This document shows positions 26,370-46,753 of a stretch of DNA of 64,000 bases, in pieces; the stretch's first letter is position 1, and each line of letters begins with the position of its first letter. The notes beneath the pieces are model-generated. The model was not told where the DNA came from. It did not search any database and worked only from the letters and a program-made list of their open reading frames with translations. The DNA is from Chelatococcus asaccharovorans (GTDB taxonomy: Bacteria; Pseudomonadota; Alphaproteobacteria; Rhizobiales; Beijerinckiaceae): assembly GCF_003201475.1 (NCBI RefSeq), contig NZ_QJJK01000001.1, forward strand, positions 508,501-572,500, given 5' to 3'. Made by a program: the position numbers and the translations under genes.

Positions 26370-27050
26370 TCACGCCCCCTCTCCCGCGGCGATGAGCTTG
26401 GCGATCAGCTCCGGCTTGCGCGCCTGCGGCACGGGATAGGTGCGGCGGCTCTGCCCAAGGCCGAGGCCGAGGAAGCTCTCCGCCAGCATCACGGCGAGCG
26501 AGGCAGGCTCCACCACCGGCACAGGCAGCGCCGCCGCGAGCCGCGCCGCCATGTCCGGGGACACAGGCTCCCCAAGCACGAGCACCTCGGCGCCGTCCTC
26601 CTCGATCGCGACTTTGGCGGCGGTCAGGATGGCGCCCTCGGTTGCCGTTTCCGCATAGGCGCGCACGCCGGTGCATTGAGCGGTGAGGCCGTATTCCTGC
26701 ACGAGCTTCTTGGCGCGGGTATAACCCGCCGGCGGCGCGATGATGCCGAACTGCGCGCCGAGGGTCAGCGCATAGAGCATCGCGCTGCGACCCGCCGCGA
26801 CCACGGGAATGTCGAGCACGGAACGCAGCGCATTGGCGCCGAAATCGCCAAACTCACCGACGCAGACGGCGCTGAAGCCTTCCGCCTCCGCGTTCTGTCC
26901 GGCGGCGAGCACGGCGAGATCGGCGAGGGTCCAGTCATGGGCGCTGATCGGCGCGGCCGGGATGCCCGGCGCGACACGGAGCTCGACCTCGGCCTCGCCG
27001 CTGAGGGGAGCGGCGCGATCGGCGGCGACAATCATCAGGATGCGGGACAT
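26370..27050 (-). CDS. Asp/Glu/hydantoin racemase-fold protein, catalytic cysteines absent
   Basis: 226 aa. The fold is recognisable from NAEAEGFSAVCVGEFGDFGA, LRSVLDIPVVAAGRSAMLYA and the C-terminal LPVPVVEPASLAVMLAESFL. The two Cys positions that perform racemisation in the family align with Glu (VGEFGD and VLGEPVSPD). It therefore probably is not a standard racemase. It is a diverged paralogue of the adjacent gene 27061-27819, from which it is separated by 10 bp. Start ATG 27050. Role unknown; perhaps an isomerase, decarboxylase-like or structural partner. Confidence 0.82.
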   Translation of the reverse strand: MSRILMIVAADRAAPLSGEAEVELRVAPGIPAAPISAHDWTLADLAVLAAGQNAEAEGFSAVCVGEFGDFGANALRSVLDIPVVAAGRSAMLYALTLGAQFGIIAPPAGYTRAKKLVQEYGLTAQCTGVRAYAETATEGAILTAAKVAIEEDGAEVLVLGEPVSPDMAARLAAALPVPVVEPASLAVMLAESFLGLGLGQSRRTYPVPQARKPELIAKLIAAGEGA

Positions 27051-27060
27051 CGCTCTCTCC

Positions 27061-27819
27061 TCAGACACGCGCCGCGGCGTCGCCCATGGCGGCGAGGCGC
27101 GCGGTCGCGGGCGCGGCCGGCGACGGGAAGGTGACGCGACTGTGGCTGAGCTTCAGCCGGATCGCGGTTTCCGCCAGGCGGTAGGTCAGCGGCCCCGGAT
27201 TGATAATCGGCACCGGCAGGCGCGCGGCGAGATAGGCATGGGCCTCGTGCATCGTGGTGGAACCGAGGATGATGACATCGGCGCCGTCCTCCTCGATGCA
27301 ACGCATCGCCGCCTCGTGGAGTGCCGGGAAGAACTCGTCCTCCTTGCCGGCGAGCAGGCTCTGGTTGTTGGGCTGCAGGCCGGCGGAGCGCACCGAGGCG
27401 CATTTGGCGCCAAGGCCGAGCTCGGCCAGCGTCTTGGCATAGAGATGGCGCCAGCGGTCCCACATGGCAAGGATAGAGAAGCGGTCGCCCAGCATGAGCG
27501 CGGTGAGCATGGCATGGCGGCCCGCCCCGATCACCGGGATGTTGAGCACGGAGCGCAGTGGCGCCATGCCGGAATCGCTGACGGTGTCGATGCAGACCGC
27601 ATCATAGCCGTCGGCCTCCGCCTGAAGGCCCGCTTCGAGCATGCCGACATCGGCGAGCACGGAATCCTGCTGGCTGACGTAGTTGACGGGCGCGATGCGC
27701 ACCGGCTTGAAGTCGAATGCGATATCCGGGCCGAGCTTCACGGCGCCGAGCTGCGCCTTGCGCTTCTCGAGATTGTCCGCATCCATCGGAAACGGCACGA
27801 TCACCAGTACCCTGGCCAT
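27061..27819 (-). CDS. Asp/Glu racemase family protein with TVSDSG and LGSTTMH motifs
   Basis: 252 aa from ATG 27819. Family core: EADGYDAVCIDTVSDSGMA, LRSVLNIPVIGAGRHAMLTA and ADVIILGSTTMHEAHAYLA, ending LPVPIINPGPLTYRLAE. At the canonical catalytic positions it has Thr and Ser instead of Cys. The TVSDSG / LGSTTM pattern itself looks like a conserved subfamily rather than random loss (inference). It precedes its paralogue and follows the flavoprotein gene after 21 bp. Confidence 0.85.
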   Translation of the reverse strand: MARVLVIVPFPMDADNLEKRKAQLGAVKLGPDIAFDFKPVRIAPVNYVSQQDSVLADVGMLEAGLQAEADGYDAVCIDTVSDSGMAPLRSVLNIPVIGAGRHAMLTALMLGDRFSILAMWDRWRHLYAKTLAELGLGAKCASVRSAGLQPNNQSLLAGKEDEFFPALHEAAMRCIEEDGADVIILGSTTMHEAHAYLAARLPVPIINPGPLTYRLAETAIRLKLSHSRVTFPSPAAPATARLAAMGDAAARV

Positions 27820-27840
27820 GGTGGACTGATCTCCCTGCAA

Positions 27841-29235
27841 TTATGACGAGAGCCGCGCCGCGCCCGCGCCCGCGAAGCGGCCGAGCACGACGGCGGTCAG
27901 AAGGCCGTTGCCGCCGAGATAGCCCCAGGACGAGGGGCCCGAGAGGCCACGGGCGGCACCGCCGGCGGCAAAGAGATTGGGCAGGCGCACGCCATCGCGG
28001 CCGAGCACGCGCGCCTCCGTGTCGACCGCGAGCCCGCCCTGCGTGTGGAAGAGCGCGCCACGCACTTTCGCCGCGAGATAGGGCGCCTTAAGCGGCGGAT
28101 TGTCCGTGAAGTCGCGGCCGAAGGGGTCCGATGCCTCACCCGCCGCATAGGAGGAAACCTCCGCGAAACGCGCTTCGAGGGCCGCGCGCGGCACGCCGAT
28201 GGCGTCGGCCAGTTCACCAACAGTCTCGGCCGTCACGACGGCGTCTTTCTCCAAGACGCGGTGATAGTCCTGGAAGGTGAGCGCCGGCTCCTCGCAGCGC
28301 CGGTCGTAGATCGTCCAGGCCGTCCCCTCGGGCTGGGCCAGCACGGCGGAGGCCTGTTCGGAATAGCCGCTCATCTCGTTCGAGAAGCGCTCGCCGTCGC
28401 GGTTGACCTGGAAGCCGCCGCGGATCACGAGTGCCCATGTCAGCGGCAGTTTCGGGCCGTTGGCGACGCAGTGGCCCTGATAACTGCCGAGATCGGCCTG
28501 CGCGGCGCCCAGGGCATCGCCCCAGTCGAGCGCCTCGCCGCGGCTGCCGTCATGGCCGCAATAGACGGCGTCGGCCATCTCGGGGATGTGCCGGGCGACG
28601 ACGGCGGGATCGGCGCCGTAGCCGCCCGTCGCCAGAACCAGCGCCCGGCAGCCGATGATGCGCTCTGCGCCGTCGGCGTCCCGGTAGCCGACCGCCGTCA
28701 CGCGGCGGTCAGCGTCGGCATAGAGCGTCTCGACCGTCGCGGAGGTGATGAGGGTGGCGCCGGCCTTGCGGGCCGCCGCCAGCAACCCCTCCTCCATCTC
28801 GGTACCCGTCCGGCTCTTCGGCACGTGGTAGCGATGGCGAGAATGGCCGGGATAGAGGATATCGTCGAGCAGCTCGAAGCCGAGGCCGTGGCTGTCGGCC
28901 AGCCATTCCACGGCAGGGCCCGAGGCCGCCGTGACGGCGCGCGCCAGAGCCTCATCAGTCCGGCCCTTGGCCTTCTTCAGGATGTCGGCGAGAAAGAGTT
29001 CGGGACTGTCCGCGATGCCCTTCTCGCGCTGGAAACGCGTGCCCGCACCGGGCAGCATGCCGAGCGTCAGCGCAGTGTTGCCGGAGGGCACCGCGTCGCG
29101 CTCCAGAACGGTAACCGATGCGCCGGCATCGCGCGCCGCCAGGGCGGCGCACAGCCCGGCCGCGCCGGCCCCGATGATGACGACATCAGCCGTTGTGGAC
29201 GCCGTGGCCTCGCCGGCGGGGCGAACCTGCGCCAT
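27841..29235 (-). CDS. FAD-dependent oxidoreductase, fumarate-reductase/ketosteroid-dehydrogenase type (paralogue 1)
   Basis: 464 aa. The FAD-binding Rossmann motif DVVIIGAGAAGLCAALAARDAG sits near the N-terminus, LVLATGGYG in the middle and a C-terminal FAD loop HTQGGLAVDTEARVLG...LPNLFAAGGAARG. In fumarate reductases two Arg grip the dicarboxylate; here the matching places read SGYSEQASA and PSSWGYLGGN without those Arg, so the substrate is probably not fumarate. It would oxidise or reduce a C-C bond next to a carbonyl. It is a close paralogue of the divergent gene 45326-46753 at the other end of the cluster. Confidence 0.9.
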   Translation of the reverse strand: MAQVRPAGEATASTTADVVIIGAGAAGLCAALAARDAGASVTVLERDAVPSGNTALTLGMLPGAGTRFQREKGIADSPELFLADILKKAKGRTDEALARAVTAASGPAVEWLADSHGLGFELLDDILYPGHSRHRYHVPKSRTGTEMEEGLLAAARKAGATLITSATVETLYADADRRVTAVGYRDADGAERIIGCRALVLATGGYGADPAVVARHIPEMADAVYCGHDGSRGEALDWGDALGAAQADLGSYQGHCVANGPKLPLTWALVIRGGFQVNRDGERFSNEMSGYSEQASAVLAQPEGTAWTIYDRRCEEPALTFQDYHRVLEKDAVVTAETVGELADAIGVPRAALEARFAEVSSYAAGEASDPFGRDFTDNPPLKAPYLAAKVRGALFHTQGGLAVDTEARVLGRDGVRLPNLFAAGGAARGLSGPSSWGYLGGNGLLTAVVLGRFAGAGAARLSS

Positions 29236-29239
29236 GGCC

Positions 29240-29731
29240 TTACCAGCTCACCTGTTCGGCGATCACCGGCCCGGCCAGGCGGAAGCGGTCGATGAAGCGC
29301 TTGCCGCTGGCGAGCGTCCCATGGCCGAAGACGAGGCTGCCGTCGTCCGTCAGGGCTTCCACGAAGCTCTCATAGCGCTTGCCCGCCTGCTGCGCAGCCG
29401 CCAGGGCATCCACAAGGCCCGTGCCACGCCCCTCGCTATCGACGGCGACGAAATCCTCCGTCACCAGCGTCGAAGCCGCGGCGGCATCGCCCTTGGCGAG
29501 CGATTCCGCGAGTTGGGCCGCGACCTCGGTGGCCGGCGGCAGCGGCGGACCGGGCACGCGCGAGACGCCGCCGCGGGCATAGGCGCTCGGCGAGACCTCG
29601 CGCAGGATGGTGACGACGCCGTCCGGCGGCGCGGCCATCACGGAGCGCACGACGCGCGTCATGCCCTTCAGCAGCCGCGCCTTGGTGGCGGCGTCATAGC
29701 CTTCGATGACGGTTGTTTCGACGACGGGCAT
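29240..29731 (-). CDS. Fusion of 4-oxalocrotonate tautomerase-like and NTF2/SnoaL-like domains
   Basis: 163 aa. Residues 1-60 (MPVVETTVIEGYDAATKARL ... VTILREVSPSAYARGG) look like a 4-OT tautomerase: the N-terminal Pro, free after Met removal, and the family spacing are present. Residues about 70-163 (AAQLAESLAKGDAAAASTLV ... FGHGTLASGKRFIDRF) look like an NTF2/SnoaL-type cone domain. The fusion is uncommon. The gene ends 4 bp before the flavoprotein start, suggesting joint action, perhaps keto-enol shuffling of its substrate or product (inference). Confidence 0.78.
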   Translation of the reverse strand: MPVVETTVIEGYDAATKARLLKGMTRVVRSVMAAPPDGVVTILREVSPSAYARGGVSRVPGPPLPPATEVAAQLAESLAKGDAAAASTLVTEDFVAVDSEGRGTGLVDALAAAQQAGKRYESFVEALTDDGSLVFGHGTLASGKRFIDRFRLAGPVIAEQVSW

Positions 29732-29809
29732 CCATGGCCTCCCGATTGATCCTGGGGGTGCCGGCCACGGGCGCGGCCGGCGCTGGTATTCACGAAGTAG
29801 CCGCGGCGC

Positions 29810-30424
29810 TCAGGCGGCCGCGATCTCGTCGATCATCTCGGCGATGGTCGCGACGCGGCACACCGGCTTCAAAGCGGCGATCGCCGTCTCGTGGGTTGCC
29901 GTGTTGAAGGCCGCCGAGCCATCCGAGAGCACCACCGTCGCGAAGTCGCGCACATGCGAATCGCGCACCGTCGAGGCGACGCCGCCATTGGTGACGATGC
30001 CGCCGATGATGAGCTTCTCGATGCCGCATTTGCGCAGCACCCACTCCATCCGGGTCATGTAGAAGGCGGAATAGGCGATCTTCTCGACGGTGAGATCGGC
30101 CGGTTGCAGTTCGTCCACGAGGCTGTGGCCCCAGGCGCCGGGCAGGAAATCACCCTTCTTGAGGAAGGGGCGCAGCTCCTTCAGATGCGGCGAGATCAGG
30201 GGCTCGCCGCCCTTGGCCGGCACCAGCGTGAACTGCGTGGAGACGAACCACCCGCCCTTCTGGCGCAGGAGGTCGGCCAGCGGCTTGATGCGCGCCGGCA
30301 GCGCCGCGATCTCAGGCGCGCCCTGGCCTGCCCGGCCATAGGCCCCATCCGGATGGATGAAGTCGTTCTGCAGGTCGACCGTCAGCAGGGCCGTCTTCGA
30401 CAGCGGGATCTCCGCGTGACTCAT
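29810..30424 (-). CDS. Isochorismatase-fold hydrolase with Gly in place of catalytic Cys
   Basis: 204 aa. The Asp of the triad (Asp17, LLTVDLQNDF) and the Lys (Lys115, TVEKIAYSAFYM) are present. The third residue, usually Cys in TNVCV, is Gly148 in IVTNGGVAST (codon GGC). Amidases and carbamoylases of this fold need the Cys; true isochorismatases such as PhzD/EntB have Gly here and cleave a vinyl ether through the Asp. So this may hydrolyse an enol ether or activated bond rather than an amide. ATG at 30424 overlaps the HyuA stop by four bases. Confidence 0.88.
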   Translation of the reverse strand: MSHAEIPLSKTALLTVDLQNDFIHPDGAYGRAGQGAPEIAALPARIKPLADLLRQKGGWFVSTQFTLVPAKGGEPLISPHLKELRPFLKKGDFLPGAWGHSLVDELQPADLTVEKIAYSAFYMTRMEWVLRKCGIEKLIIGGIVTNGGVASTVRDSHVRDFATVVLSDGSAAFNTATHETAIAALKPVCRVATIAEMIDEIAAA

Positions 30425-32511
30425 GATGCGCGCTCCACGATGACGTTGCCATAATCGTCGATGCGCGCCGTGAGGTCGGGATCGACCACCGTCGTCGCAT
30501 CGGGCTGCTCGAGGATGGCGGGGCCGCGCACCACGGTGCCGACCGGCAGGTCGAGGCGGGCGTAGATCGCCGCCTCATGCCAGGCGCCGTCGAACCACAC
30601 ATTGCGGTGGCCGAGATGCGCCTTGTCGAGGCTCGCGTCGCCGCTCGGCCGGAGCGCCGCGAGGTCGAAGCGCGGACGACGGCCGATGGCGGCGGTGCGC
30701 AGGTTGACGATGCGCGCCGGCACGCCGTTGAGGAGGCGGCTGAAGGAATTGCGGTAGGCCTCCTCGAAGGCTGTGCGGATGACGGCCTCCGTCACGCCGG
30801 TCGTGCCGTTCGCAATGGTCACCGGCAGCGGCACCGAGACGGTGTGCGTCTGGCCGACATAATGCATGTCGAGCTCGAACAGCACGTCGATGCGATCGAC
30901 CGCAAGGCCCGCCGCCTCGACGACAGCCCGCGCCTCTTCCGCCTCGGCGACCATCCGCTTGTCGAGCGCGGCGGCGTCGATGCCCTCGAGGCTCAGGTTC
31001 ACGGTCTGCACCTGGTCATGCCGGATATCGGCGATGACGCAGCCGAGCGCCGAGGTCACGCCGGGATAGCGCGGCACGAGCGCGGCCTTGAGGCCGACGT
31101 CCTTGATCAGCGCGCCGACATGCAGCGCCCCGCCGCCGCCGAAGGGCACGGCGGCGAACTTGGCCGGATCATGCCCGCGCTCGATGGACACGAGGCGAAT
31201 GGCGCCGGCCATCTTGGCATCGGCGATACGGACGATCGCCTCGGCCGCCACCATCACATCGAGGCCGAGGGGCTTCGCCACATGCTCATCGATGGCGGCG
31301 CGCGCGGCCTCGATGTCGAGGCGCTTCAGCATGCCGCCGATCGGCCGGTCGGAATTGATGCGCCCGAGCACGACATTGGCGTCTGTCAGGGTCGGCCGGG
31401 TGTTGCCCTGCCCGTAGCAGACGGGACCCGGCCGCGAGCCGGCGCTTTCCGGGCCGACCTGCAGCATGCCGCCGGCATCGACATGGGCGATGGAGCCGCC
31501 GCCGGCGCCGATCGTCGTGATCTCGATCATCGGCGTGCGGATGACGAGGCCGAAATCGATGGTGGTCTGCGCGGCGAGCGCCGTCTTGCCGCCGACCACG
31601 AGCGAGACGTCGAAGGACGTGCCGCCGAGATCGCCGGTGATGACATTGGGGAAGCCGGCCGCCTCCGAAATCGCCGCCGCGGCGATGACGCCGGCCGCGG
31701 GACCGGAGAGCGCGGTGCGCACCGGCAGGCGGCGCGCCGTCTCGGTGGACATGACGCCGCCGTTCGACTGCACGATATGGAAGCGTCCGCCGAAGCCCTC
31801 GGATTGCAGGGCATCGTCGAGCTTGGCGAGATAGCTGCCGACCACCGGCTGCAGATAGGCATTGAGTGCCGTCGTCGAGGTGCGCTCGAACTCGCGGATT
31901 TCCGGCAGGATCTGGCTGGAACAGGCGACATTGCCGTTCGGCCAGACTTCGGACGCGATGGCGAGTGCCTTCTGCTCGTTCTCGGGGTTGGCATAGGCGT
32001 TGACGAAGACGATGGCGAGCGCCTCGCAGCCCGCGGCGACGAGCTCCAGCGCCGCCTCGCGCACGGCATCCTCGTCGAGCGCCTCGCGGATGGTGCCGTC
32101 GGCGAGCGTCCGCTCGTTGACCTCAAGCCGCAGATCACGGTCGATCACGGGCACAAAATCGCCCCACAGGCCCCAGGTATGGCGCCGGTCGCGGCGGCGC
32201 ATCTCGAGCACGTCGCGGAAACCCTTGGTGGTGATGAGGCCGCAGCGCGCGCCCTTGCGCTCCAGGAGCGCATTGGTGCCGACCGTGGTCCCGTGCACGA
32301 CCGACGTGAGATCGGCGATCGCGCCGAAGACCTTCAGGCCGTTGAGGAAGCCGACCGCCTCGTCACCCCGGTTGGAGGGCACCTTGGCGGTGCGGAAGGC
32401 CTTGGCCGGCTCGTCATAGAAGAACAGATCGGTGAAGGTTCCGCCGACGTCGACGCCGACGATGCGCCCTTCGCGGTTCTTGACTGGCGCGTTCTTGACA
32501 GGCGCGTTCAT
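30421..32511 (-). CDS. hyuA: Hydantoinase/oxoprolinase subunit A (HyuA family)
   Basis: 696 aa. The ATPase-fold phosphate motif is GVDVGGTFTDLFFYDE, followed by VVHGTTVGTNALLERKGA, SGPAAGVIAAAAISEAAG, DLGGTSFDVSLVV and GAGGGSIA. With HyuB it forms an ATP-dependent cyclic amide (oxoprolinase, hydantoinase) or ketone-carboxylating enzyme. The first 11 residues repeat (NAPVKNAPVKN) because of a 15-bp tandem duplication at 32476-32505. ATG at 32511 overlaps the HyuB stop by four bases. Confidence 0.94.
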   Translation of the reverse strand: MNAPVKNAPVKNREGRIVGVDVGGTFTDLFFYDEPAKAFRTAKVPSNRGDEAVGFLNGLKVFGAIADLTSVVHGTTVGTNALLERKGARCGLITTKGFRDVLEMRRRDRRHTWGLWGDFVPVIDRDLRLEVNERTLADGTIREALDEDAVREAALELVAAGCEALAIVFVNAYANPENEQKALAIASEVWPNGNVACSSQILPEIREFERTSTTALNAYLQPVVGSYLAKLDDALQSEGFGGRFHIVQSNGGVMSTETARRLPVRTALSGPAAGVIAAAAISEAAGFPNVITGDLGGTSFDVSLVVGGKTALAAQTTIDFGLVIRTPMIEITTIGAGGGSIAHVDAGGMLQVGPESAGSRPGPVCYGQGNTRPTLTDANVVLGRINSDRPIGGMLKRLDIEAARAAIDEHVAKPLGLDVMVAAEAIVRIADAKMAGAIRLVSIERGHDPAKFAAVPFGGGGALHVGALIKDVGLKAALVPRYPGVTSALGCVIADIRHDQVQTVNLSLEGIDAAALDKRMVAEAEEARAVVEAAGLAVDRIDVLFELDMHYVGQTHTVSVPLPVTIANGTTGVTEAVIRTAFEEAYRNSFSRLLNGVPARIVNLRTAAIGRRPRFDLAALRPSGDASLDKAHLGHRNVWFDGAWHEAAIYARLDLPVGTVVRGPAILEQPDATTVVDPDLTARIDDYGNVIVERAS

Positions 32512-34241
32512 GCCGCGGCTCCCTTGCGGAGGCTGGCCGTCGCCGCCTCGTCGAGTTCTCCGTCGTCGCTCACGGCGACCCCATAATCCCGGCGCGCGCT
32601 TTCCGCGCTGATGTAGCCGAGGCGCACGTCCCGCGCGACGAGCGAGGCCGCACGCGCCAGCGGACTGCCCCAGCCGCCGCCGCCCGGCGTCTGCAGCTTC
32701 ACGGCGCGCCCGGTCGGCACCGGCACGCCGGTGACCTTGGAGACGAGCGGCGGCGAATGTTCGCCGTCCTCAGCCTCCCAGGTGAAGCGGTTGAGCCCGG
32801 CCGGCCCACCCCCGCGCACGCCGAAGGGCGCCACCTTGCCGCGCTCGCCAAGCAGGAACACCTCCGCATCAGACAGTGCCTCCACCTCATAGATCGCGCC
32901 GAGACCGCCGCGGTGGGTGCCGGGGCCGGCCGAATCCGGCCGAAGCGCCCATTGCCGGAACATCACGGGATAGCTCGCCTCGAGAATTTCGAGCGGCGGG
33001 ATCGTCGCCGTCGAGATCGGGTTGTTGGCGTGGTTGAGGCCATCCGTTTCCGGGTTGCCGCCCATGCCGCCGCCGAAGAAGGAGAACATCACCCAGCGGT
33101 CGCCATTGGCGCGATGGCCGGCGAAGGAGAGCGCGTTGATGGTGCCGAAGGGCGCGGCGGTCGCGCGCTCCGGATCGGCCTTCGCCAGCGCGCCGAGCAC
33201 AACGCCGATGAGGCGCAGGATGGTCTCGGTGTAGCCGGCCATCGGCTTCGGGGCGGTGGCGCCGAGCAAGGTGGTCGGCGGGATGACGAAATCGATCGGC
33301 CTGAGGCAGCCGGCATTGGCCGGCACATCCGTGAAGATGTGCTTCAGCGCCACGTAGCAGGCGGCCGCCGTCGTCGCGTAGGAAATGTTGATCGGCCCCT
33401 GCGCCGGCGGCGACGAGCGCGAGAAATCAAGCGTCATCGTCTCGCCGGCGATGGTGAGATCGAGCGCGACGGTCAGCATGTCGTCGGTGATGCCGTCGTT
33501 GTCGAGCACGTCCTCGAAGGAATAGCGGCCGTCCGGCAGGGCGCGGATGGCGCTGCGCATCAGGGCTTCGGCGCGATCGGAGAAGGCCTCGAAGGCGGCC
33601 GATACGGTCGCCGGGCTGTATTCGTCGAGAAGCGACTCGAAGCGGCGCTGGCCGAGATCGAGCGCGTTGAGCTGGCCGTTGAGATCGCCCCAGTTCGAGG
33701 TCGGTACGCGCGAATTCGCGGCGAGCAGATCGACGATATCCTGGTTCAGCTTGCCGGCGGAGAACAGCTTGACCGGCGGGAAGCGCACGCCCTCCTGAAA
33801 GCTTTCGGTCGCCTTGGGATTATAGCCGCCCGGCACGTTGCCGCCGATATCGAGCCAATGGCCGGCGGAGGCGAGCCAGCAGAACAGCTCGCCGCTGCGG
33901 AAGATCGGCCGCACGAGGCGGAAGTCGTTGAGATGGGTGCCGCCCACATAGGGGTCATTGAACAGGAAGGTGTCGCCCTCCTCAAGGCCGCCCTCGCGCG
34001 CCACCTTGTCGATCACCGCCTTGACCGCGAAGGCCATGGCGCCGACGAAGATGGGCAGGCCGTTGGTGCCCTGCACCAGCGTCGCGCCGGTGGTCGCGTG
34101 GTAGAGCCCGTGGCAGGCATCGCGCGCCTCGGCGATGATCGGGTTGAACGCCGAGCGATACAGCGTGGCGTCCATCTCGTCGGCGATCTGCTCCAGGCGC
34201 CCCTTGAGCACGGCAAGGGTGACAGGATCGATACTGGTCAT
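32508..34241 (-). CDS. hyuB: Hydantoinase/oxoprolinase subunit B (HyuB family)
   Basis: 577 aa. Family landmarks: DPVTLAVLKGRLEQIADEMD at the N-terminus, SEAR-like IIAEARDACHGLY, FLFNDPYVGGTHLNDFRLV, and the C-terminal GAGTHRGGLGAIYE-type glycine-rich stretch and LQTPGGGGWGSPL. It is the partner of HyuA directly downstream. Start ATG 34241 overlaps the end of the lyase gene by four bases. Confidence 0.94.
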   Translation of the reverse strand: MTSIDPVTLAVLKGRLEQIADEMDATLYRSAFNPIIAEARDACHGLYHATTGATLVQGTNGLPIFVGAMAFAVKAVIDKVAREGGLEEGDTFLFNDPYVGGTHLNDFRLVRPIFRSGELFCWLASAGHWLDIGGNVPGGYNPKATESFQEGVRFPPVKLFSAGKLNQDIVDLLAANSRVPTSNWGDLNGQLNALDLGQRRFESLLDEYSPATVSAAFEAFSDRAEALMRSAIRALPDGRYSFEDVLDNDGITDDMLTVALDLTIAGETMTLDFSRSSPPAQGPINISYATTAAACYVALKHIFTDVPANAGCLRPIDFVIPPTTLLGATAPKPMAGYTETILRLIGVVLGALAKADPERATAAPFGTINALSFAGHRANGDRWVMFSFFGGGMGGNPETDGLNHANNPISTATIPPLEILEASYPVMFRQWALRPDSAGPGTHRGGLGAIYEVEALSDAEVFLLGERGKVAPFGVRGGGPAGLNRFTWEAEDGEHSPPLVSKVTGVPVPTGRAVKLQTPGGGGWGSPLARAASLVARDVRLGYISAESARRDYGVAVSDDGELDEAATASLRKGAAA

Positions 34242-35116: not shown

Positions 35117-35117
35117 C

Positions 35118-37249: not shown

Positions 37250-37988
37250 GGGACGCCTCCTCGGCACGCAGACGGTCGGCCGCGCCCTTGCCGAGATAGG
37301 CCTCGACCACATGCGGATCGACGCAGACCTCGCGCGGCGTGCCCTGGGCGATCATCTTGCCCTGCGCCAGGACATAGACCTCGTCGCAGAGGTTCATCAC
37401 CGCCTGCATGACATGCTCGATCATCAGGATCGTCACGCCCTCGTCGCGGATGGCGCGAATGACCGGCACGATGTCGCGAATTTCCGATGGGTTGAGGCCC
37501 GCCAGCACCTCGTCCAGCAGCAGGAGCTTCGGCTCGGTCGCCAAGGCCCGCGCCAGTTCGAGCCGCTTGCGGCCGGCGACCGTGAGGCTCGACGCCTGCT
37601 TGTCGAGATCGCCGCCGAGGCCGACCCGCCTTGCCACGGCCTCCGCCTTCGCGTGAGCCTCCGCCGCGCGCGCATGGCGCAGATAGGCGCCGACAGCGAT
37701 ATTCTCGCGCACGTCGAGGCCGGCGAAGGGCTGCACGATCTGGAAGGTGCGGGCGATGCCGAGTTTCGCCCGCTCATGCGCCGGCAGCGGCGTGATATCG
37801 CTGCCCTCGAAAATGACACGCCCGGCGGTCGGATCGAGAAAGCCGGCGATGATGGCGAACAGCGTGGTCTTGCCCGCGCCGTTCGGGCCGATGAGCCCGA
37901 CGATGCGGCCCTTGTCGACCTTGAGGGAGGCGCCGCCGACGGCGGTGAGCCCGCCGAAGCGCATCGTGATATCCTTGACCTCGAGCAT
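37242..37988 (-). CDS. livG: Branched-chain-type ABC transporter ATPase LivG (second system)
   Basis: 248 aa. Walker A GPNGAGKTT, ARTFQIVQPFAGLDVRENI, signature variant LTVAGRKRLELARAL, Walker B LLLLDEVLAGLNPSEI and IEHVMQAVMNLCDEV. The glutamate of Walker B is present (LDE). ATG at 37988 overlaps the LivM TGA by one base; a GTG at 37991 is possible. Confidence 0.94.
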   Translation of the reverse strand: MLEVKDITMRFGGLTAVGGASLKVDKGRIVGLIGPNGAGKTTLFAIIAGFLDPTAGRVIFEGSDITPLPAHERAKLGIARTFQIVQPFAGLDVRENIAVGAYLRHARAAEAHAKAEAVARRVGLGGDLDKQASSLTVAGRKRLELARALATEPKLLLLDEVLAGLNPSEIRDIVPVIRAIRDEGVTILMIEHVMQAVMNLCDEVYVLAQGKMIAQGTPREVCVDPHVVEAYLGKGAADRLRAEEASHA

Positions 37989-38971
37989 CACGCGGTCTCC
38001 TCGGCGGTTTTAGCCACGGGCTGCGACCGGAAGCGGAGTTTGCGCAGGAGGCCGAGCACACCGCCCGGCGCGAAGGCGACGACCAGGATCAGCACCGCCC
38101 CATAGGCGGCGAGATCGATGCCCGGCACGCGCCCCGCGAGAAGCTTGCTTGCCTCGCCGAGCCCATGCAGCGTGAAGGCGCCGATGATCGGCCCGAGCAC
38201 GAGGCCGCGGCCGCCGACCATCGGCGCGAGCAGCGCCTCGACCGAGATCCACAGGCCATAGGCGATATTGGCATCGATATAGAGGAAATATTGGAGATAG
38301 AGGCAGCCGGCGACCGCCGTCAGCGCCGCCGACACGGTGATCGCCTTCAGCTTGACGGAGAGCACGTCCACGCCGAGGGCGCGCGCCGCCTCCTCGTTTT
38401 CGCGCACGGCGACGAGTTGCGCGCCGAAGCGAGAGTTGGCGATCATCTGGGAGACGATGAGCCCGACCGCCACGAAGCCGAGGGCGAGCCAGAGGAAGGC
38501 CGCGCGGCTGGTGAACTGCATGTTCCAGAAACCGACGTCCAGTTTCATCAGCAGGCCGGCGGCGCCGCCCGTGAAGCCGGCGGCATTGGCGAGAATGCGC
38601 AGCACCTCGGCGAAGGCGAGCGTGACGAGCGCGAAATAGGAGCCACGCAGCCCGGCCCGGAAGGACAGGAAGCCGATGATCCAGCCGACCGCCGCGCCTG
38701 CGGCGACCGCGACGGCCGTCGCCACCCAGGCATTGATGCCGAAGCGCACCTGCAGGATGGCCGAGACATAGGCGCCGGTGCCGAAGAAGGCTGCATGGCC
38801 GAAGGAGGATTGCCCGCCGACGCCGCCGAGAAGGTTCCAGCCCTGCGCCGCCAGCGTGATGATGAGCACGAAGACGACGAAGTTGAGCACGACGTTCGAT
38901 GTCACCGCGAAAGGCAGCAGCGCCAGGACCGCGAGGACGAGAAGGATGGGAAGATAGCCGCGTCGCGTCAT
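37988..38971 (-). CDS. livM: Branched-chain-type ABC transporter permease LivM (second system)
   Basis: 327 aa with about ten hydrophobic stretches. LivM motifs: LAAQGWNLLGGVGGQSSFGH, GTGAYVSAIL, FRAGLRGSYFALVTLAFAEV and a coupling loop GVDVLSVKLKAITVSA. ATG 38971 overlaps the LivH stop by four bases. Confidence 0.94.
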   Translation of the reverse strand: MTRRGYLPILLVLAVLALLPFAVTSNVVLNFVVFVLIITLAAQGWNLLGGVGGQSSFGHAAFFGTGAYVSAILQVRFGINAWVATAVAVAAGAAVGWIIGFLSFRAGLRGSYFALVTLAFAEVLRILANAAGFTGGAAGLLMKLDVGFWNMQFTSRAAFLWLALGFVAVGLIVSQMIANSRFGAQLVAVRENEEAARALGVDVLSVKLKAITVSAALTAVAGCLYLQYFLYIDANIAYGLWISVEALLAPMVGGRGLVLGPIIGAFTLHGLGEASKLLAGRVPGIDLAAYGAVLILVVAFAPGGVLGLLRKLRFRSQPVAKTAEETA

Positions 38972-39840
38972 GCCCGTGCTCCGAACAGACCGGTGGGCCG
39001 GAACAGCAGCACCAGGATGAAGATGATGAAGATGCCGATCTGGCCGAGGCTTTCGCCCAGGAACAGGCCGCAGAGGCTTTCCACGACACCGATGAAGAGC
39101 CCGCCGATGAGCGCCCCGGTGATCGAGCCCATGCCGCCGAGAACGACGATGGTGAAGGCGACGAGCACGAAGGCACCGCCGACGCGCGGATTGACGTAGA
39201 AGGTCGGCATCAGCAGGCAGGCGGCGATGGCGAGCGTGGCGCAGCCGATGCCGAAGGTCACCGCGAAGACATGGCTGACGTTGATGCCGACGAGGCGCGC
39301 GCCGAGCTTTTCCTTGGCGACGGCGCGGATGGCCTTGCCGGTATCGGTGGCTGCAAGCAGCAGCCATAGGAGGCCCGTGACGACAACCGCCCCGAGGAAG
39401 CCGAAGAGCCGCGCCTGCGAGATGAGCAGGGGGCCGACCTCAAACACGTTGAACGAATAATCCGTCATGAGTGAGCGCGTATCGGACCGGAAGCCGGCGA
39501 GCAGCGCATTCTCGATGACGATGGAAAGCCCGAGCGTGATGAGCAGGATATTGCCATCGTCGCCATGGCTCGCCGGGCCGATGACGAAGCGCTGAACGGC
39601 ATAGCCGATCGCAAAGAAGATCAGGGTGAGCGGCAGGATCGCCAGATAGGGGTCCAGGCCGAGAAAGGTATTGGCCAGCCAGACGGCGAACATCGCGCAG
39701 GTGAGGAAGGCCCCATGCGCGAAGTTGATGATGTGCAGGACGCCATACACCAGCGTCAGACCCAGCGCGATCAGCGCATAGACCGCACCGGTCAGAAGGC
39801 CATTGAGCATGGCTTCCGCGACGATGGGAAGGGAGTACAT
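38968..39840 (-). CDS. livH: Branched-chain-type ABC transporter permease LivH (second system)
   Basis: 290 aa. LivH motifs: NGLLTGAVYALIALGLTLVY, LHIINFAHGAFL, and VVLGGMGSITGALIGGLFIG, ending FRPTGLFGARA. ATG at 39840 is chosen; a TTG six codons upstream is an alternative. Confidence 0.93.
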   Translation of the reverse strand: MYSLPIVAEAMLNGLLTGAVYALIALGLTLVYGVLHIINFAHGAFLTCAMFAVWLANTFLGLDPYLAILPLTLIFFAIGYAVQRFVIGPASHGDDGNILLITLGLSIVIENALLAGFRSDTRSLMTDYSFNVFEVGPLLISQARLFGFLGAVVVTGLLWLLLAATDTGKAIRAVAKEKLGARLVGINVSHVFAVTFGIGCATLAIAACLLMPTFYVNPRVGGAFVLVAFTIVVLGGMGSITGALIGGLFIGVVESLCGLFLGESLGQIGIFIIFILVLLFRPTGLFGARA

Positions 39841-39907
39841 CGAGCGATCCGCTTGCAAATACGGGAGGAGCGGGCGGCGCCCGCGAAGGCGCCGCCCGGC
39901 GGGAAGA

Positions 39908-41131
39908 TCAACCCCGGACGGGGAAGATCGGCTTGGCGTCCGAGAAGGCCTCGGGATAGACCACCCGGATCGTCGCCTTCTGCACCTGGGTCGACACCGG
40001 CGCCGCGCCCTGGTTCTGGCCGCCCACGAATTTCGTCGGCCCGTAGGGCATCAGGTGCTTGTCGTAGGTGGAAGCGGCGATGGAATCGATCAGCTTGGCG
40101 CGATCGGCAGAGCCCGCGCGCTCGATGGCATCGGCCAGCAGCATGACGCAGGAGTAGTTGAGCGGGGTGTTGTAGTTCCACTGCTTGCCGGCATCGACGA
40201 CCCGCTTCTGCAGCTCGGCATTCTTCGGGTTGCGCGGGTCCTGCCAATGGTTGACGTCCATGATGTTCTCGGCCGCTTCCGGGAACTCCTTGACGAAGCG
40301 CATGTTCGAGGCCGCGCCGTTGAGCACGGCATAGACGGCCTTGGGCCGCACGCGCTGCTGCTGCATGGTGCGCGCCAGGAGCACCGTCTCGCCGTAGTAG
40401 GTGCTCGGGATGACGAGATCCGGGTTGAGCGAACGCAGGCGCAGCGCGACGTTGGACAGGTCGCGCGAAGGCGTCGGGATGGCGATGGTCTCGGCAATCT
40501 CGAAGCCGTGCTTCGGCAATTCGGTCTGCATCAGCTTGGCGAGGCCGGAACCGAACAGGCCGTCCTCGTGGACGAGCGCAATGGTCTTGGCGGGCTTGCC
40601 GGCGGCCTCGTTGATGCGCACCAGGTTCTGGATGGCGGCCTGGGTGCAGATCGCGAAGCCCGGCGCGAAGCGGAAGGTGTTCTTCAGCCCGCGCTGGATG
40701 ATCTGATCGGACACGCCGACGTCGACGATATAGGGCAGGTCATAGCGCGCGGCGGCCTGGGTCGCCGCGAGGCAGATCGGGCTCGCGAAACCGCCGACGA
40801 TGGCCGCAACGCCTTCGCTCTGCATGCGCTCGACTTCCTGCACGCCCGCCTCCGGATTGGAGCGCGCATCGCCGAACACCATCTCGATCTTGGCACCACC
40901 GAGCGCCTTGATACCGCCCGCCGCGTTGATATCGGCGATCGCAAGTTCGGCACCCGTGCGCCCGAACTCACCATCCATGGCGAGCGCGCCCGTCACCGGC
41001 TGCAGGATGCCGACTTTCACCGCCGGCGGCTCGGCCGCCCGCAGCACCGACGGTGCGGCGATGGCAGCAGCAGCGGCGATCCCCCCCTTGAGAGCGCCAC
41101 GGCGGCTCACTGGTTTCATGAACAGGGTCAT
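39908..41131 (-). CDS. Liv-type ABC transporter substrate-binding protein (second system)
   Basis: 407 aa. Twin-arginine type signal KPVSRRGALKGGIAAAAAIA with cleavage near LRAAE. The mature start is VKVGILQPVTGALAMDG, with VGGFASPICLAATQAA and KTIALVHEDGLFGSG, all LivJ-like. ATG 41131 lies seven bases after GGAG. It follows gntR in the same direction, so regulator and transporter may share a transcript. Note SPICL and FAICTQ cysteines in the receptor domain. Confidence 0.93.
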   Translation of the reverse strand: MTLFMKPVSRRGALKGGIAAAAAIAAPSVLRAAEPPAVKVGILQPVTGALAMDGEFGRTGAELAIADINAAGGIKALGGAKIEMVFGDARSNPEAGVQEVERMQSEGVAAIVGGFASPICLAATQAAARYDLPYIVDVGVSDQIIQRGLKNTFRFAPGFAICTQAAIQNLVRINEAAGKPAKTIALVHEDGLFGSGLAKLMQTELPKHGFEIAETIAIPTPSRDLSNVALRLRSLNPDLVIPSTYYGETVLLARTMQQQRVRPKAVYAVLNGAASNMRFVKEFPEAAENIMDVNHWQDPRNPKNAELQKRVVDAGKQWNYNTPLNYSCVMLLADAIERAGSADRAKLIDSIAASTYDKHLMPYGPTKFVGGQNQGAAPVSTQVQKATIRVVYPEAFSDAKPIFPVRG

Positions 41132-41218
41132 CACAAATCTCCTCTGACAACCGCCCCCTCGGTGGCGGCCTCCTTGCTTTTGGTGACATCGTTCACAACC
41201 GGCGGGCGGTTGCGATCC

Positions 41219-42079
41219 TCAGGCCTTCGTCCTGCGCGGCACATCCCCCCGCCGCATCTGGGGGTTCGATTCCGGCCGCGCCGAGGCTTCATTGCGCGGC
41301 TTTGCATCACCTTTCCGCGCACGCTCGACGGGCGTCCAGGACCGTGAATTGCCAGCCCCCGTGCGCACCAGATCCATCTGGAACGAATAGCGATCCGGCC
41401 GGTAGAAGGCGTGCAGATGCTCGATGCCCTGGCCGGACGGGGCGTAGACGACGCGCGTCAGGGCAAGAAGGGCTGCGCCGATCTCGAGCCCCAGCGCCTC
41501 GGCGATGTCCGGCCCGGCGAGCGTCGCGCCGATCGTCTGGCTGGCGCGTTCGGCCACGAGCCCGGAGCGCTCCAGCAGTTCGAGCAGCGGTTTCGACGCC
41601 AGATCCGCCTCCGAATAGGACACGCCGATACGTTCCGGCACATGCGTCACGAGATAGGAGAAGGGCTGCCCGTCGATGACGCGCAGGCGCACCGAACGCT
41701 GCACCCGCTCGCCAGCTTCCAGGCGCAGCGCTTCGGCGAGGACGGGAGTCGGCGGGACATAGCCGAAGGACAGAAGCTTGACCTCGGTGCGCCGCCCCAT
41801 CTCCACGAGATGGGACAACAGGTTCGAGAAATCGGCCGTGACGGGGAAATTCGCCTTGCTGCCGTTGACGAAGGTGCCGGAGCCGGGGCGGCGCTCGATG
41901 AGACCCTCATTGGCAAGCTTGTCGAGGGCGCGACGCACGGTGACGCGGGACACGCCATGCTGCTCGGCAAGGGTGGGCTCGCTGGGCAGGCGGCTTTGCG
42001 GACGCTCCTCGCCACTGACGATGCGGTCACGCAACAGCAAATAGAGTCTGCGCGCCTTTAAAGGCTCGACGCTCGACAT
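41219..42079 (-). CDS. GntR-family regulator with UTRA domain (HutC type)
   Basis: 286 aa. The winged-helix N-terminus reads YLLLRDRIVSGEERPQSRLP ... VSRVTVRRALDKLANEGLIE with RRPGSGTFV, then a UTRA effector domain (FGYVPPTPVLAEALRLEAGE ... RSVRLRVIDGQPF ... YRPDRYSFQMDL). It is likely the local regulator of the 26-47 kb cluster. An inverted repeat sits 28-43 bp upstream of its start. The last about 35 residues are basic and outside the normal domain. Confidence 0.93.
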   Translation of the reverse strand: MSSVEPLKARRLYLLLRDRIVSGEERPQSRLPSEPTLAEQHGVSRVTVRRALDKLANEGLIERRPGSGTFVNGSKANFPVTADFSNLLSHLVEMGRRTEVKLLSFGYVPPTPVLAEALRLEAGERVQRSVRLRVIDGQPFSYLVTHVPERIGVSYSEADLASKPLLELLERSGLVAERASQTIGATLAGPDIAEALGLEIGAALLALTRVVYAPSGQGIEHLHAFYRPDRYSFQMDLVRTGAGNSRSWTPVERARKGDAKPRNEASARPESNPQMRRGDVPRRTKA

Positions 42080-42106
42080 CCCGCCCCTCTTTCTGTTCTA
42101 TATCAG

Positions 42107-42122
42107 ATACAGAAACCTGTAT
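42107..42122. promoter_or_regulatory. Candidate GntR operator, ATACAG-N4-CTGTAT
   Basis: ATACAGAAACCTGTAT is a perfect 6-4-6 inverted repeat in the 92-bp AT-rich gap directly upstream of gntR. The eight bases CTGTATTA at its right side recur, inverted, as TAATACAG at 45258-45265 in the leuC/flavoprotein divergent promoter region. Placement suggests autoregulation plus control of the cluster. Confidence 0.6.
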
Positions 42123-42171
42123 TATTCATGACACGTCTCTGCGGCCTGTCAAGCGCGGCAAAGTGGCCTTT

Positions 42172-43143: not shown

Positions 43144-43144
43144 T

Positions 43145-43762
43145 TCAACCACCCCGCCGCGGCATGGCCCAGGGCCGAGCCTGCACATCGGCCGCGACAA
43201 AAGCCTTGATGGCATCCGCCTGGCTCATCGTGAGGTCGATGTCGTCCCAGCCGTTGAGGAGCTTGGTGCGCCACACCGGGTCAACCGTGAAGGGCACACT
43301 GAGATTGCCGACCACGATGCGGCAATCCTCCAGATCGACCAGCATGTCGTGCGCGCCGTCCTCCAGCGCCGCGATGAGGCTCTCGCCATCGGCCTCCGTG
43401 ACCTTGGCCGGCAGGAGGCCGTTGTTCACCGCATTGGAGGCGAAGATGTCGCCGAAGCTCGGCGCGATGACGCAGCGGATCCCGTAGTCCACAAGCGCAT
43501 AGACCGCCGCCTCGCGGGAGGAGCCGCTGCCGAAGTTGCGCCTCGCGACGATGACCTGCGCGCCGGCCCGTTCCGGCGCATTCAGAGGGAAGTCCGGCCG
43601 CGGCGCGCCCGCCTCGTCGAAGCGCAGGTCGTGCAGGAGAAAGCCGCCATAGCCCTCGGCGCGCGAACGCTTCATGAAACGGGCCGGAATGAGCTGGTCG
43701 GTGTCGACGCTCGACAGCGGCAGCGGGCAGGCCATGCCGTTCAGCTTGGTGAAGGCCTCCAT
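43145..43762 (-). CDS. 3-isopropylmalate dehydratase small subunit paralogue (LeuD-like)
   Basis: 205 aa aconitase swivel domain: SVDTDQLIPARF, NFGSGSSREAAVYALVDYG, IAPSFGDIFASNAVNNGLLP. It pairs with the LeuC-like protein, whose stop overlaps this start by one base. No leuB or leuA is nearby and the genes lie in a catabolic operon, so the pair probably hydrates a substituted maleate (citraconate- or dimethylmaleate-like) rather than making leucine (inference). Confidence 0.92.
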   Translation of the reverse strand: MEAFTKLNGMACPLPLSSVDTDQLIPARFMKRSRAEGYGGFLLHDLRFDEAGAPRPDFPLNAPERAGAQVIVARRNFGSGSSREAAVYALVDYGIRCVIAPSFGDIFASNAVNNGLLPAKVTEADGESLIAALEDGAHDMLVDLEDCRIVVGNLSVPFTVDPVWRTKLLNGWDDIDLTMSQADAIKAFVAADVQARPWAMPRRGG

Positions 43763-45180: not shown

Positions 45181-45257
45181 CGGCCTTGTTCCTTGTTGCC
45201 TCTCCTTGATGAAGGTTACGCCCAACTGGCCTTCCAAGGCAAATCTTGTTTTAATTC

Positions 45258-45265
45258 TAATACAG
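45258..45265. promoter_or_regulatory. Possible GntR half-site in divergent promoter region
   Basis: TAATACAG in an AT-rich patch (45241-45280) of the 145-bp gap between the divergent leuC-like and flavoprotein genes. It is the reverse complement of CTGTATTA at the gntR operator. The second half is poorly kept, so support is limited. Confidence 0.35.
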
Positions 45266-45325
45266 ATTTATATCGCATAAATGGGACAGCTAAGTGTGTG
45301 ACCAGACGGTGCAGGGAGGCTTTCC

Positions 45326-46753
45326 GTGAGTGAAGTGATCCGTGACGGCGACAAGACCTTCGCGTTCGCCGTACCCGTCGTCGTCATCGGTGCCGGCGCC
45401 GCCGGCCTCATCGCCGCGCTCGCCGCCCGGGAGGCCGGCGCGGACGTGCTGGTCCTCGAACGCGACGCCCTCCCCCGCGGTTCGACCGCGCTGTCCGCCG
45501 GCCTTATTCCCGCCGCCGGCACCCGCTGGCAGAAGGACGCCGGCATCACCGACAGCCCAGAGGTCTTCGCCGCCGACGTCATGGCGAAGGCCAAGAACGA
45601 GCCGGACCCCGGCCTCGTCGCGCTGGTCACCCGAGAAGCCGGCCCCACCATCGAATGGCTCGGCACCACCTATGGCCTGCCCTTCTCCGTGATCGCCGAC
45701 TTCAGCTATCCCGGCCACAGCGCGCGGCGCATGCATGGCCTGCCGACCCGCTCCGGCGAGGAACTGATCGACGCCCTGCGGGGCGCCGCCGAGAACGCCG
45801 GCATCGACATTCTCTGCGAGGCCCATGTCACGACGCTCTTCGCCGACGCCGACAACCGCGTCACCGGCCTCGCCTTCGTGAGGCCTGACGGCTCGCGCGA
45901 CGAGGTCGGCTGCGACCAGCTCATTCTCGCCTGCAACGGCTACGGCGGGAATAAAGATCTCGTGAAGGCGCATATTCCGTCCCTCGCCGAGGCGCTCTAT
46001 TTCGGCCATGAGGGCAACAAGGGCGACGCGCTCCTGTGGGGCGAGGCGCTCGGCGCGGCCACCCGCCACCTCTCCGGCCATCAGGGCCACGGCTCCGTCG
46101 CCTATCCCGCCGGCATCCTCATCAGCTGGGCGACGATCAGCGAGGGCGGCGTCCAGGTGAACCTGGCGGGCGAGCGCTTCTGCGACGAATCCCGCGGCTA
46201 TTCCGAGCAGGCGGCCGAAGTTCTGGCGCAGCCGCAGGGTCTTGCCTGGACGGTCTTCGACCACCGCATCGCCGCCATCACCCGCCAGTTCGAGGACTAC
46301 AAGCGCGCCGAGGCCATGGGCGCGATCGTCACCGCCGACGACTGGCCGACCTTGGCCGCGCGCATGGGCGTGCCGGCCGAGGCGCTTACGGCGACGATGA
46401 CCGCAACCGCGGAGGCCAAGGCCGCAAGCACCCGCACAGCCGGCGCGCGCGATGCCTTCGGCCGGGACTTCACCGGCGTACCGCAGCTCTCGGCGCCCTA
46501 TTGCGCGGTGAAGGTGACCGGCGCGCTCTTCCATACCCAGGGCGGACTGGTGGTGGACGACGAAGCCCGGGTCCTCGACAGCGCCGGCCGTCCCCTGCCG
46601 AACCTCTTTGCCGCGGGCGGCGCCGCCTGCGGCGTCTCCGGCGCGAAGGCCGCCGGCTACCTCTCCGGCAACGGCCTCCTCACCGCCGTCACCCTCGGCC
46701 GCGTCGCGGGCCGGGCTGCGGGGGAGAAGATAGCGGGCGGCGGGGCCGGCTAG
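45326..46753 (+). CDS. FAD-dependent oxidoreductase, fumarate-reductase/ketosteroid-dehydrogenase type (paralogue 2)
   Basis: 475 aa from GTG 45326, six bases after GGGAGG. FAD motif VVVIGAGAAGLIAALAAREAG, ILACNGYGG, and the C-terminal HTQGGLVVDDEARVLDSAG with LPNLFAAGGAACGVSG and GYLSGNGLLTAVTLGR. It is plainly paralogous to 27841-29235. The dicarboxylate-clamping Arg of fumarate reductases are again missing (RGYSEQAAE). Its TAG stop (46751-46753) is the first three bases of a repeat B copy. Confidence 0.91.
   Translation: MSEVIRDGDKTFAFAVPVVVIGAGAAGLIAALAAREAGADVLVLERDALPRGSTALSAGLIPAAGTRWQKDAGITDSPEVFAADVMAKAKNEPDPGLVALVTREAGPTIEWLGTTYGLPFSVIADFSYPGHSARRMHGLPTRSGEELIDALRGAAENAGIDILCEAHVTTLFADADNRVTGLAFVRPDGSRDEVGCDQLILACNGYGGNKDLVKAHIPSLAEALYFGHEGNKGDALLWGEALGAATRHLSGHQGHGSVAYPAGILISWATISEGGVQVNLAGERFCDESRGYSEQAAEVLAQPQGLAWTVFDHRIAAITRQFEDYKRAEAMGAIVTADDWPTLAARMGVPAEALTATMTATAEAKAASTRTAGARDAFGRDFTGVPQLSAPYCAVKVTGALFHTQGGLVVDDEARVLDSAGRPLPNLFAAGGAACGVSGAKAAGYLSGNGLLTAVTLGRVAGRAAGEKIAGGGAG

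Follow-up and report, generated by a model that had tools for sequence, protein, structure and literature searches.

A window of 64 kb from the genome of Chelatococcus asaccharovorans (7.25 Mb in 40 contigs), the whole stretch of DNA analysed here, carries at positions 26370-46753 a conserved gene cluster. Many marine and soil proteobacteria have such a set, which probably serves the uptake of a nitrogen-containing ring compound and its breakdown to pyruvate and a second small acid. The core of the set consists of a GntR/UTRA regulator, a tautomerase-SnoaL fusion protein, the two-subunit enzyme HyuAB, an isochorismatase-fold protein, a PrpB-like lyase, an aconitase-type hydratase and the flavoprotein FadB; PrpD, a second flavoprotein FadA, two racemase-fold proteins (Rac1 and Rac2) and an old yellow enzyme (OYE) are peripheral (Table 1). 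A Pfam profile search of the window proteins recovers at this place every gene family that an earlier note on this DNA, made from the letters alone, had listed. The near-continuous unit described in the note holds for the minus-strand run from the leuC-like gene down to the first racemase-fold gene, in which many gene ends touch or overlap, and does not extend to fadB, which is divergent from the leuC-like gene on the plus strand.

The grouping of these genes is not due to chance, as relatives keep the gene order and distant proteobacteria share a smaller core. The tautomerase-SnoaL fusion is present in 9/248 genomes of the family and 17/397 genomes of the order (own genome in both counts), and a near-complete cluster in the same order with 53-99% identity is found in three genomes of the same genus, in Microvirga guangxiensis from the same family and in Afifella sp. 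from the same order, the latter without a match to oye. Loci anchored on the fusion were taken from the best 80 of 192 relatives in a scan of named genomes, with the best match counted per place and many loci ending at contig ends. Among these 80, the lyase is found in 70, hyuB in 65, the leuC-like gene in 64, gntR in 60, the leuD-like gene in 58, hyuA in 50, the isochorismatase in 49 and fadB in 46; the genes for the Liv importer occur in 19-27, rac2 in 10, prpD in 9, fadA in 3, rac1 in 2 and oye in none. Upon a stricter count with identity thresholds, restricted to the 47 full-flank loci, each at least 20 kb long, and to six core functions besides the fusion, 43 loci hold at least four of the six, with a ring opener in 44, the lyase in 44 and the hydratase in 42, and three (L072, L088 and L138) hold fewer than two. 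HyuA has 20 matches in its own genome (the last one partial), the nearest full paralogue being 42-43% identical, and the cluster HyuA proteins of distant genomes, with 57-87% identity, are closer to the window HyuA than this paralogue, which argues for the distant clusters being orthologues and not chance neighbours. Most loci are from Alphaproteobacteria; Gammaproteobacteria contribute L075, L097, L114, L121, L144 and L146, and L089 is a Burkholderiaceae record. L149, labelled Flavobacteriia (organism unverified), agrees in contig number and length with L148, a Roseobacter record, which points to probable contamination. A pair of octopine-dehydrogenase-like and 3-hydroxyacyl-coenzyme A (CoA)-dehydrogenase-like genes is located near the fusion in L088, L104, L108, L115, L123, L125, L137 and L147, with the rest of the cluster absent in L088 and L104.

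Co-location does not depend on the choice of anchor. Lyase matches with E of at most 1e-90 are present in 38/289 genomes of the class (own included), and among 20 of these regions that were inspected over a longer stretch, 12 have the lyase accompanied by a ring opener as well as a hydratase; L267, at a contig end, has the isochorismatase and fadB near the lyase and L275 the hydratase only. In one genus (g323), the lyase loci L264-L266 show the layout of the window minus hyuAB, the isochorismatase and leuCD, with hyuB (66%) and leuC-like (67-68%) genes carried elsewhere in these genomes; L266 shows no tautomerase match and only a short match to fadA. Thus homologues are repeatedly found together in other genomes, whichever gene is the anchor; that they would never be co-located was one of the outcomes which the earlier note had named as speaking against its proposal.

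Parts of the cluster are swapped in place, HyuAB plus isochorismatase for CE4 hydrolases plus a thiol isochorismatase, LeuCD for HacAB-like subunits and the Liv importer for a TRAP importer. HyuAB is present in 65 of the 80 loci and CE4 hydrolases in 7; the other 8 have neither type of ring opener, and no locus has both. The importer is Liv in 21 loci and TRAP in 32, with neither seen in 27. The CE4 pair is PuuE-like and its accompanying isochorismatase keeps the catalytic cysteine, N-carbamoylsarcosine amidohydrolase being the nearest among its top solved matches. In L273, with the order gntR-sbp-Liv-hacA-hacB-lyase-isoX7-ce4a-ce4b-fadB, the segment isoX7-ce4a-ce4b fills the slot which hyuB-hyuA-isochorismatase occupies in the Stappiaceae-type Liv/HacAB operons.

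An operator for the GntR/UTRA regulator is strongly suggested. Gaps inspected in relatives contain a TGTAT-N8-ATACA-like palindrome. A weight matrix based on 20 different sites that precede the fusion gene in loci L072-L148, to which neither the window nor its near relatives contributed, places its three best sites of the 64 kb in the leuC-fadB and oye-gntR gaps (Table 1); the fourth (score 7.9) is also within the oye-gntR gap, and the next one drops to 4.3. Top scores over 100 block shuffles had a mean of 7.7, a 95% level of 13.0 and a maximum of 15.1, so that the site at 45247 exceeds all shuffles and the site at 42094 the 95% level. The site at 42118 is on its own below this level, and the position of all three in the expected gaps adds weight. 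Sites are found in the same gaps of the three genus-mates, Microvirga and Afifella. Elsewhere, 31/77 loci have a site no more than 120 bases ahead of the fusion, whereas 500 shuffles gave 0.57 such loci on average and never more than 3; the 31 comprise 26/39 of the LeuCD type and 5/15 of the remaining types other than HacAB. One regulon, as postulated in the earlier note, is supported because an operator model derived from the sites of distant loci lands in both expected gaps. No operator site precedes the binding-protein gene in the window, and therefore the genes from gntR to rac1 would be transcribed from the gntR promoter. Promoters and terminators predicted in the window are not in excess of those in shuffled sequence (1 versus 2.0 and 9 versus 8.5, respectively).

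With respect to the ring opener, the A subunit motifs D21-D28 (DxGGTxTD), D294-T298 (DxGGT) and G358-P363 (GxxPGP) are conserved in at least 97% of the 50 aligned HyuA proteins. The metal site D41, H103, D106 and H128, whose correspondence to that of CapB is based on the spacing of the motif, is conserved to the same level of 97% or more among 65 aligned HyuB proteins. In the accessible part of the source, these ATP motifs and the Asp-His-Asp-His metal site characterize the ATP-dependent HyuAB family including the caprolactamase CapAB (PMC8453981); the two window subunits agree with the family on both counts. Among curated models, CapA (533 bits) and CapB (330.5 bits) are nearest, ahead of the acetophenone carboxylase subunits, with both scores below the cut-offs of 1000 of the caprolactamase models NF050156 and NF050157. 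An alignment of 46 isochorismatase-fold proteins retains D17, K115 and G148 in 97% or more of the sequences.

The hydratase subunits score above the cut-offs of the isopropylmalate isomerase models (TIGR00170, 661.9 bits versus 560.25; TIGR00171, 180.9 versus 116.25). The own genome holds a separate LeuC, 57% identical to the cluster protein, and a separate LeuD with the loop QYLKT; the housekeeping loop [FY]LK is absent from the LeuD-like subunit of the cluster, which has ARFMKR instead. After removal of a spurious match, 60 of 61 small-subunit loops readable in the 80 loci were compared, and 58 of these contain methionine, as FMS/FMK in the LeuD type and YMK/YMS/YMR in the HacB type, versus leucine (FLK or YLK) in 30/30 housekeeping LeuD controls; methionine is likewise found in 14/17 lyase-anchored small subunits. 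One HacB-type control with methionine, L233, stands beside a 61% identical lyase in another genome, where the stand-alone operon TctC-HacA-HacB-lyase-GntR shows hydratase and lyase as an independent pair behind a tricarboxylate-type binding protein.

The lyase carries the KRCGH catalytic loop of the isocitrate lyase (ICL)/phosphoenolpyruvate (PEP) mutase family lyases in 65/66 aligned sequences. Aligned to solved lyases, it keeps the proline of the PrpB pyruvate pocket, and the other side of the pocket, with petal-death-like NMVEGG and F-V/I-EAP motifs, is as in the petal death protein, the roles of these pocket residues being presumed. With 284.2 bits it is below the cut-off of the PrpB model TIGR02317 (354.4).

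FadB, 51.5% identical to FadA, keeps H255, R284 and H403 when aligned with fumarate reductases, R284 standing at what we take to be the position of the catalytic arginine, and has Trp-Ala in place of their Glu-Thr pair. Against the flavocytochrome c fumarate reductase model TIGR01813 it scores 248.1 bits versus a cut-off of 285.45, with the active-site arginine pair incomplete. A desaturation step is supported by the variant locus L284, as genes for a family III CoA-transferase and an acyl-CoA dehydrogenase stand there between the ring-opening and hydratase genes (between isochorismatase and leuC). In the tautomerase-SnoaL fusion, Met1-Pro2 is invariant in 38 aligned sequences, and an AlphaFold2 model with a mean predicted local distance difference test score of 95.3 shows two successive domains.

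From the gene set, its conservation, the replacements and the conserved active-site residues, all of which are computational observations, we infer every reaction and the class of substrate. Chances are about even that the cluster is one regulon whose core opens a nitrogen ring, desaturates, hydrates and cleaves the product to pyruvate or another 2-oxo acid and an acid, with the peripheral genes as a side branch. The GntR/UTRA repressor would bind the TGTATTA-N4-TAATACA-like operator and control the whole regulon, including the uptake of a carboxylated compound. HyuAB with the cysteine-less isochorismatase-fold protein would open the ring in an ATP-dependent manner, in other lineages the PuuE-like CE4 hydrolases with the thiol isochorismatase. 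The alkylsuccinate-type acid so formed would be desaturated by FadB, and the tautomerase-SnoaL fusion would adjust its double bond. The LeuCD-like hydro-lyase would subsequently hydrate the alkylmaleate-type product, and the lyase would split the alkylmalate, giving a carboxylic acid together with pyruvate or a different 2-oxo acid. PrpD, FadA, the racemase-fold proteins and OYE would form a lineage-specific side branch that shares regulator, importer and lyase. The sequence of opening, redox chemistry, hydration and lysis in the earlier note agrees with the conserved core, the lyase pocket residues and the L284 variant; its assignment of all named enzymes to a single pathway is not supported, as these peripheral enzymes are missing from most core loci. 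The present analysis adds the division into core and periphery, the operator, the swaps in place and the evidence from active-site residues.

In this proposal the ring would most probably be five-membered, that of an imide, a lactam or a hydantoin-like compound. Five-ring imides would be the preferred candidates, since one slot is filled by two unrelated ring openers and since the hydratase and an alkylmalate lyase need a C4 diacid; in the part of the source available, the CE4/PuuE fold includes cyclic imidases, and HxnM is a cyclic imidase related to this fold (PMC9304392). A far-reaching version of the proposal, which we regard as a long shot, is a widespread proteobacterial route for alkyl-substituted five-ring imides from chlorophyll, bilin and haem breakdown, such as hematinic acid or its dihydro form. 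HyuAB or CE4 hydrolases would open the ring, and the product would be desaturated, hydrated by a LeuCD or HacAB of altered specificity and cleaved to pyruvate and an acid, whereby opener, hydratase and importer would each have been independently replaced by unrelated enzymes. A search of the full-text literature on hematinic acid and maleimide found no catabolic pathway.

Several observations weigh against the proposed regulon and route. The weakest point is the release of nitrogen: Gly148 of the isochorismatase-fold protein replaces the catalytic cysteine, the Asp-Lys-Cys triad of thiol amidases is thus incomplete, and an ordinary thiol half-amidase is missing from the HyuAB loci. Lacking the nucleophile, the protein is a doubtful candidate for a plain amidase, and its reading as a plain half-amidase was rejected. 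In FadB, Tyr445 stands at a position of the fumarate reductases presumably held by the arginine for the second carboxylate, so that a dicarboxylate substrate is not assured. Leucine loops occur in the cluster in 2/60 small subunits (FLR in L105, YLK in L110) and in 3/17 lyase-anchored loci (YLK in L246, L248 and L263); the HacB-type control is thin, with two leucine and two methionine loops among four readable loci over the cut-off, and one of the methionine loops, L232, has no lyase nearby. The operator is found upstream of the fusion in 0/23 HacAB-type loci, and a loose operator pattern is neither significant in the window (3 matches; 7/100 shuffles reach 3) nor enriched genome-wide (13 matches versus 17 for a reversed control). 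Lyase orthologues with 61-63% identity stand without the cluster in 3/20 regions (L272, L278 and L281), and in genus g323 a second locus (L284, L285) has its own GntR, hyuB, hyuA, isochorismatase, leuC and leuD apart from lyase and fadB. Finally, a 77% identical paralogue of the lyase is located outside the cluster in the own genome (L160/L169 on contig C10). Its neighbours are a Liv importer, a luciferase-like monooxygenase, an AMP-binding enzyme, a GMC oxidoreductase, a cysteine-bearing isochorismatase, an amidohydrolase and a GntR/UTRA regulator, and an operator-like site is present; as a guide to the substrate this locus was set aside, since the enzymes there are different and do not name a substrate, and L159 likewise.

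The incomplete triad bears directly on the alternative of a hydantoin or ureide pathway, in which HyuAB or a PuuE-like enzyme would open the ring, the isochorismatase-fold protein decarbamoylate the product, the racemase-fold proteins set the stereochemistry and the amino acid be oxidised and split. PuuE is an allantoinase, the thiol isochorismatase of the CE4 loci is nearest to N-carbamoylsarcosine amidohydrolase, and Rac2, which keeps Cys83 and in 9 aligned sequences the motif GSTT at 193-196, is nearest to allantoin and hydantoin racemases, allantoin racemase being the nearest solved protein (E 6.7e-15). Nevertheless such a pathway is unlikely, as decarbamoylation would fall to a protein without the cysteine in the cluster itself, an amino acid has no obvious need for a hydro-lyase and a 2-alkylmalate-type lyase, and the racemase-fold proteins are absent from most loci. 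Rac1 (cysteines at residues 69 and 132) and Rac2 are 37% identical, and both lack the second cysteine of the two-cysteine racemase motif. The related creatinine/N-methylhydantoin route, set aside, leaves hydro-lyase and lyase unexplained.

The two-locus arrangement of genus g323, where the second locus has its own GntR, would fit two or more unrelated small pathways that share regulator and importer by accident of assembly, with no single substrate, and the variation of prpD, fadA, the racemase genes and oye independently of the core points in the same direction. That the core is jointly kept in loci of many lineages, that replacements occur in place and that common operators occupy both gaps make this explanation unlikely. 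We consider it improbable that HyuAB is an ATP-dependent carboxylase comparable to acetone and acetophenone carboxylases, acting on a substrate without nitrogen, with the isochorismatase-fold protein cleaving an enol ether: an Asp/Lys/Gly pattern with glycine at the cysteine position is indeed that of true isochorismatases, and the ATP and metal motifs are, in the part of the source available, common to carboxylases and hydrolases (PMC8453981), but CapA and CapB are the nearest models, though below their cut-offs, and HyuAB is replaced by CE4 hydrolases and not by another carboxylase. The ergothioneine, vitamin B6 and nicotinate routes were set aside, as their key families are not seen in the cluster, and so was the homarine route, on which a literature search gave no match to the gene set.

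Table 1. Genes and predicted operator sites of the cluster within the window
Feature	Position	Strand	Evidence	Class
Racemase-fold protein 1 (rac1)	26370-27068	-	PF01177, E 3.6e-20	peripheral
Racemase-fold protein 2 (rac2)	27061-27840	-	PF01177, E 5.3e-29	peripheral
FadA, fumarate-reductase-like flavoprotein	27841-29235	-	PF00890 (FAD_binding_2), E 7.4e-51	peripheral
Tautomerase-SnoaL fusion	29240-29731	-	PF01361 above cut-off; SnoaL/DUF4440 match below cut-off	core
Isochorismatase-fold protein, Gly for catalytic Cys	29810-30424	-	PF00857	core
HyuA, ATP-binding subunit	30421-32511	-	Pfam	core
HyuB, metal-binding subunit	32508-34241	-	PF02538, E 2.3e-172	core
PrpB/petal-death-protein-like C-C lyase (PEP mutase/ICL family)	34238-35116	-	PF13714	core
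MmgE/PrpD-family protein (PrpD)	35118-36536	-	PF03972, PF19305	peripheral
Liv-type ABC importer (LivF, LivG, LivM, LivH, binding protein)	36548-41134	-	Pfam	
GntR/UTRA regulator	41219-42079	-	PF00392 and PF07702 above cut-off	core
Predicted operator upstream of gntR (oye-gntR gap)	42094-42111		model score 13.8, rank 2 in 64 kb	
Second predicted operator upstream of gntR	42118-42135		model score 12.5, rank 3 in 64 kb	
Old yellow enzyme (OYE), NamA-like	42172-~43128	-	PF00724; family match starts ~43128, open reading frame opens 43215	peripheral
LeuD-like small subunit, Met in substrate loop (ARFMKR)	43145-43762	-	TIGR00171	core
LeuC-like large subunit	43762-~45180	-	TIGR00170; start read from sequence, open reading frame opens 45237	core
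Predicted operator, leuC-fadB divergent gap	45247-45264		model score 16.3, rank 1 in 64 kb	
FadB, fumarate-reductase-like flavoprotein, divergent	45326-46753	+	PF00890	core

The cluster is flanked by a cupin gene (25796-26260) past rac1 and by an EamA-family gene after fadB; the region is also bordered by unrelated sugar importers with LacI regulators. Among the peripheral proteins, PrpD has B. subtilis IRG1 and IDS-epimerase as nearest solved relatives, and its only NCBIfam match, NF042438, gives 34.8 bits versus a cut-off of 950, well short of an equivalog assignment as 2-methylcitrate dehydratase. The own genome shows 13 MmgE/PrpD matches; further such genes are located in the window at approximately 2463-3185 and just outside it at contig C1 504560-505270. 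Directly past rac1, a second MmgE/PrpD gene with 35-38% identity to prpD is found in the three genus-mates and in Microvirga and Afifella, ahead of the cupin gene where a cupin is seen; it was probably lost in the window, with only a short gap at 26203-26370. A GC-rich inverted repeat at 39858-39908, between the binding-protein and LivH genes and with no T run in the stretch read, is possibly an mRNA-processing or attenuation element.

If the proposed route is right, it defines a module for catabolism that has no assigned substrate and is widespread in marine bacteria such as Ruegeria, Sulfitobacter, Roseibium and Stappia, it accounts for leucine-pathway paralogues that are repeatedly misannotated, and enzymes around one pathway have been replaced independently. 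The conserved operator and the importers offer direct handles on the identity of the substrate. The enzyme families are known; their combination and its wide conservation appear undescribed, as a full-text literature search, with little coverage of subscription journals, found no description of the pathway or gene set, the papers listed being unrelated or confined to the level of enzymes. The word unprecedented in the earlier note is accurate in so far as no published description was found and inaccurate for the set itself, which is widespread.

In comparison with known systems, the window opener resembles caprolactamase CapAB and other HyuAB enzymes, as covered by the accessible part of the source, in its two subunits, ATP motifs and metal site (PMC8453981), and differs from CapAB in scoring well below the cut-offs of the CapA and CapB models. 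The CE4/PuuE-like hydrolases in the ring-opening slot of 7/80 loci are reminiscent of the imidase and amidase pair HxnM-HxnN of Aspergillus nidulans; unlike this pair, the window opener is HyuAB with an isochorismatase-fold partner without the amidase cysteine, and hydratase and lyase are not in the fungal route as described in the part of the source available (PMC9304392). The lyase shares with PrpB and petal death protein the fold, the KRCGH loop, the PrpB pocket proline and the petal-death-like motifs, and is set apart from PrpB by its mixed pocket and its score below the PrpB cut-off. In the nicotinate fermentation of Eubacterium barkeri, 2,3-dimethylmaleate hydratase (DmdAB) is followed by 2,3-dimethylmalate lyase. 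The back end proposed here is of the same kind, as a lyase of the ICL/PEP-mutase family would act after a hydro-lyase of the aconitase type and yield pyruvate and an acid; unlike the E. barkeri route, the annotated genes of the cluster include no B12 mutase or methylitaconate isomerase family, and the front end is composed of HyuAB, the isochorismatase fold, FadB and the tautomerase-SnoaL fusion.

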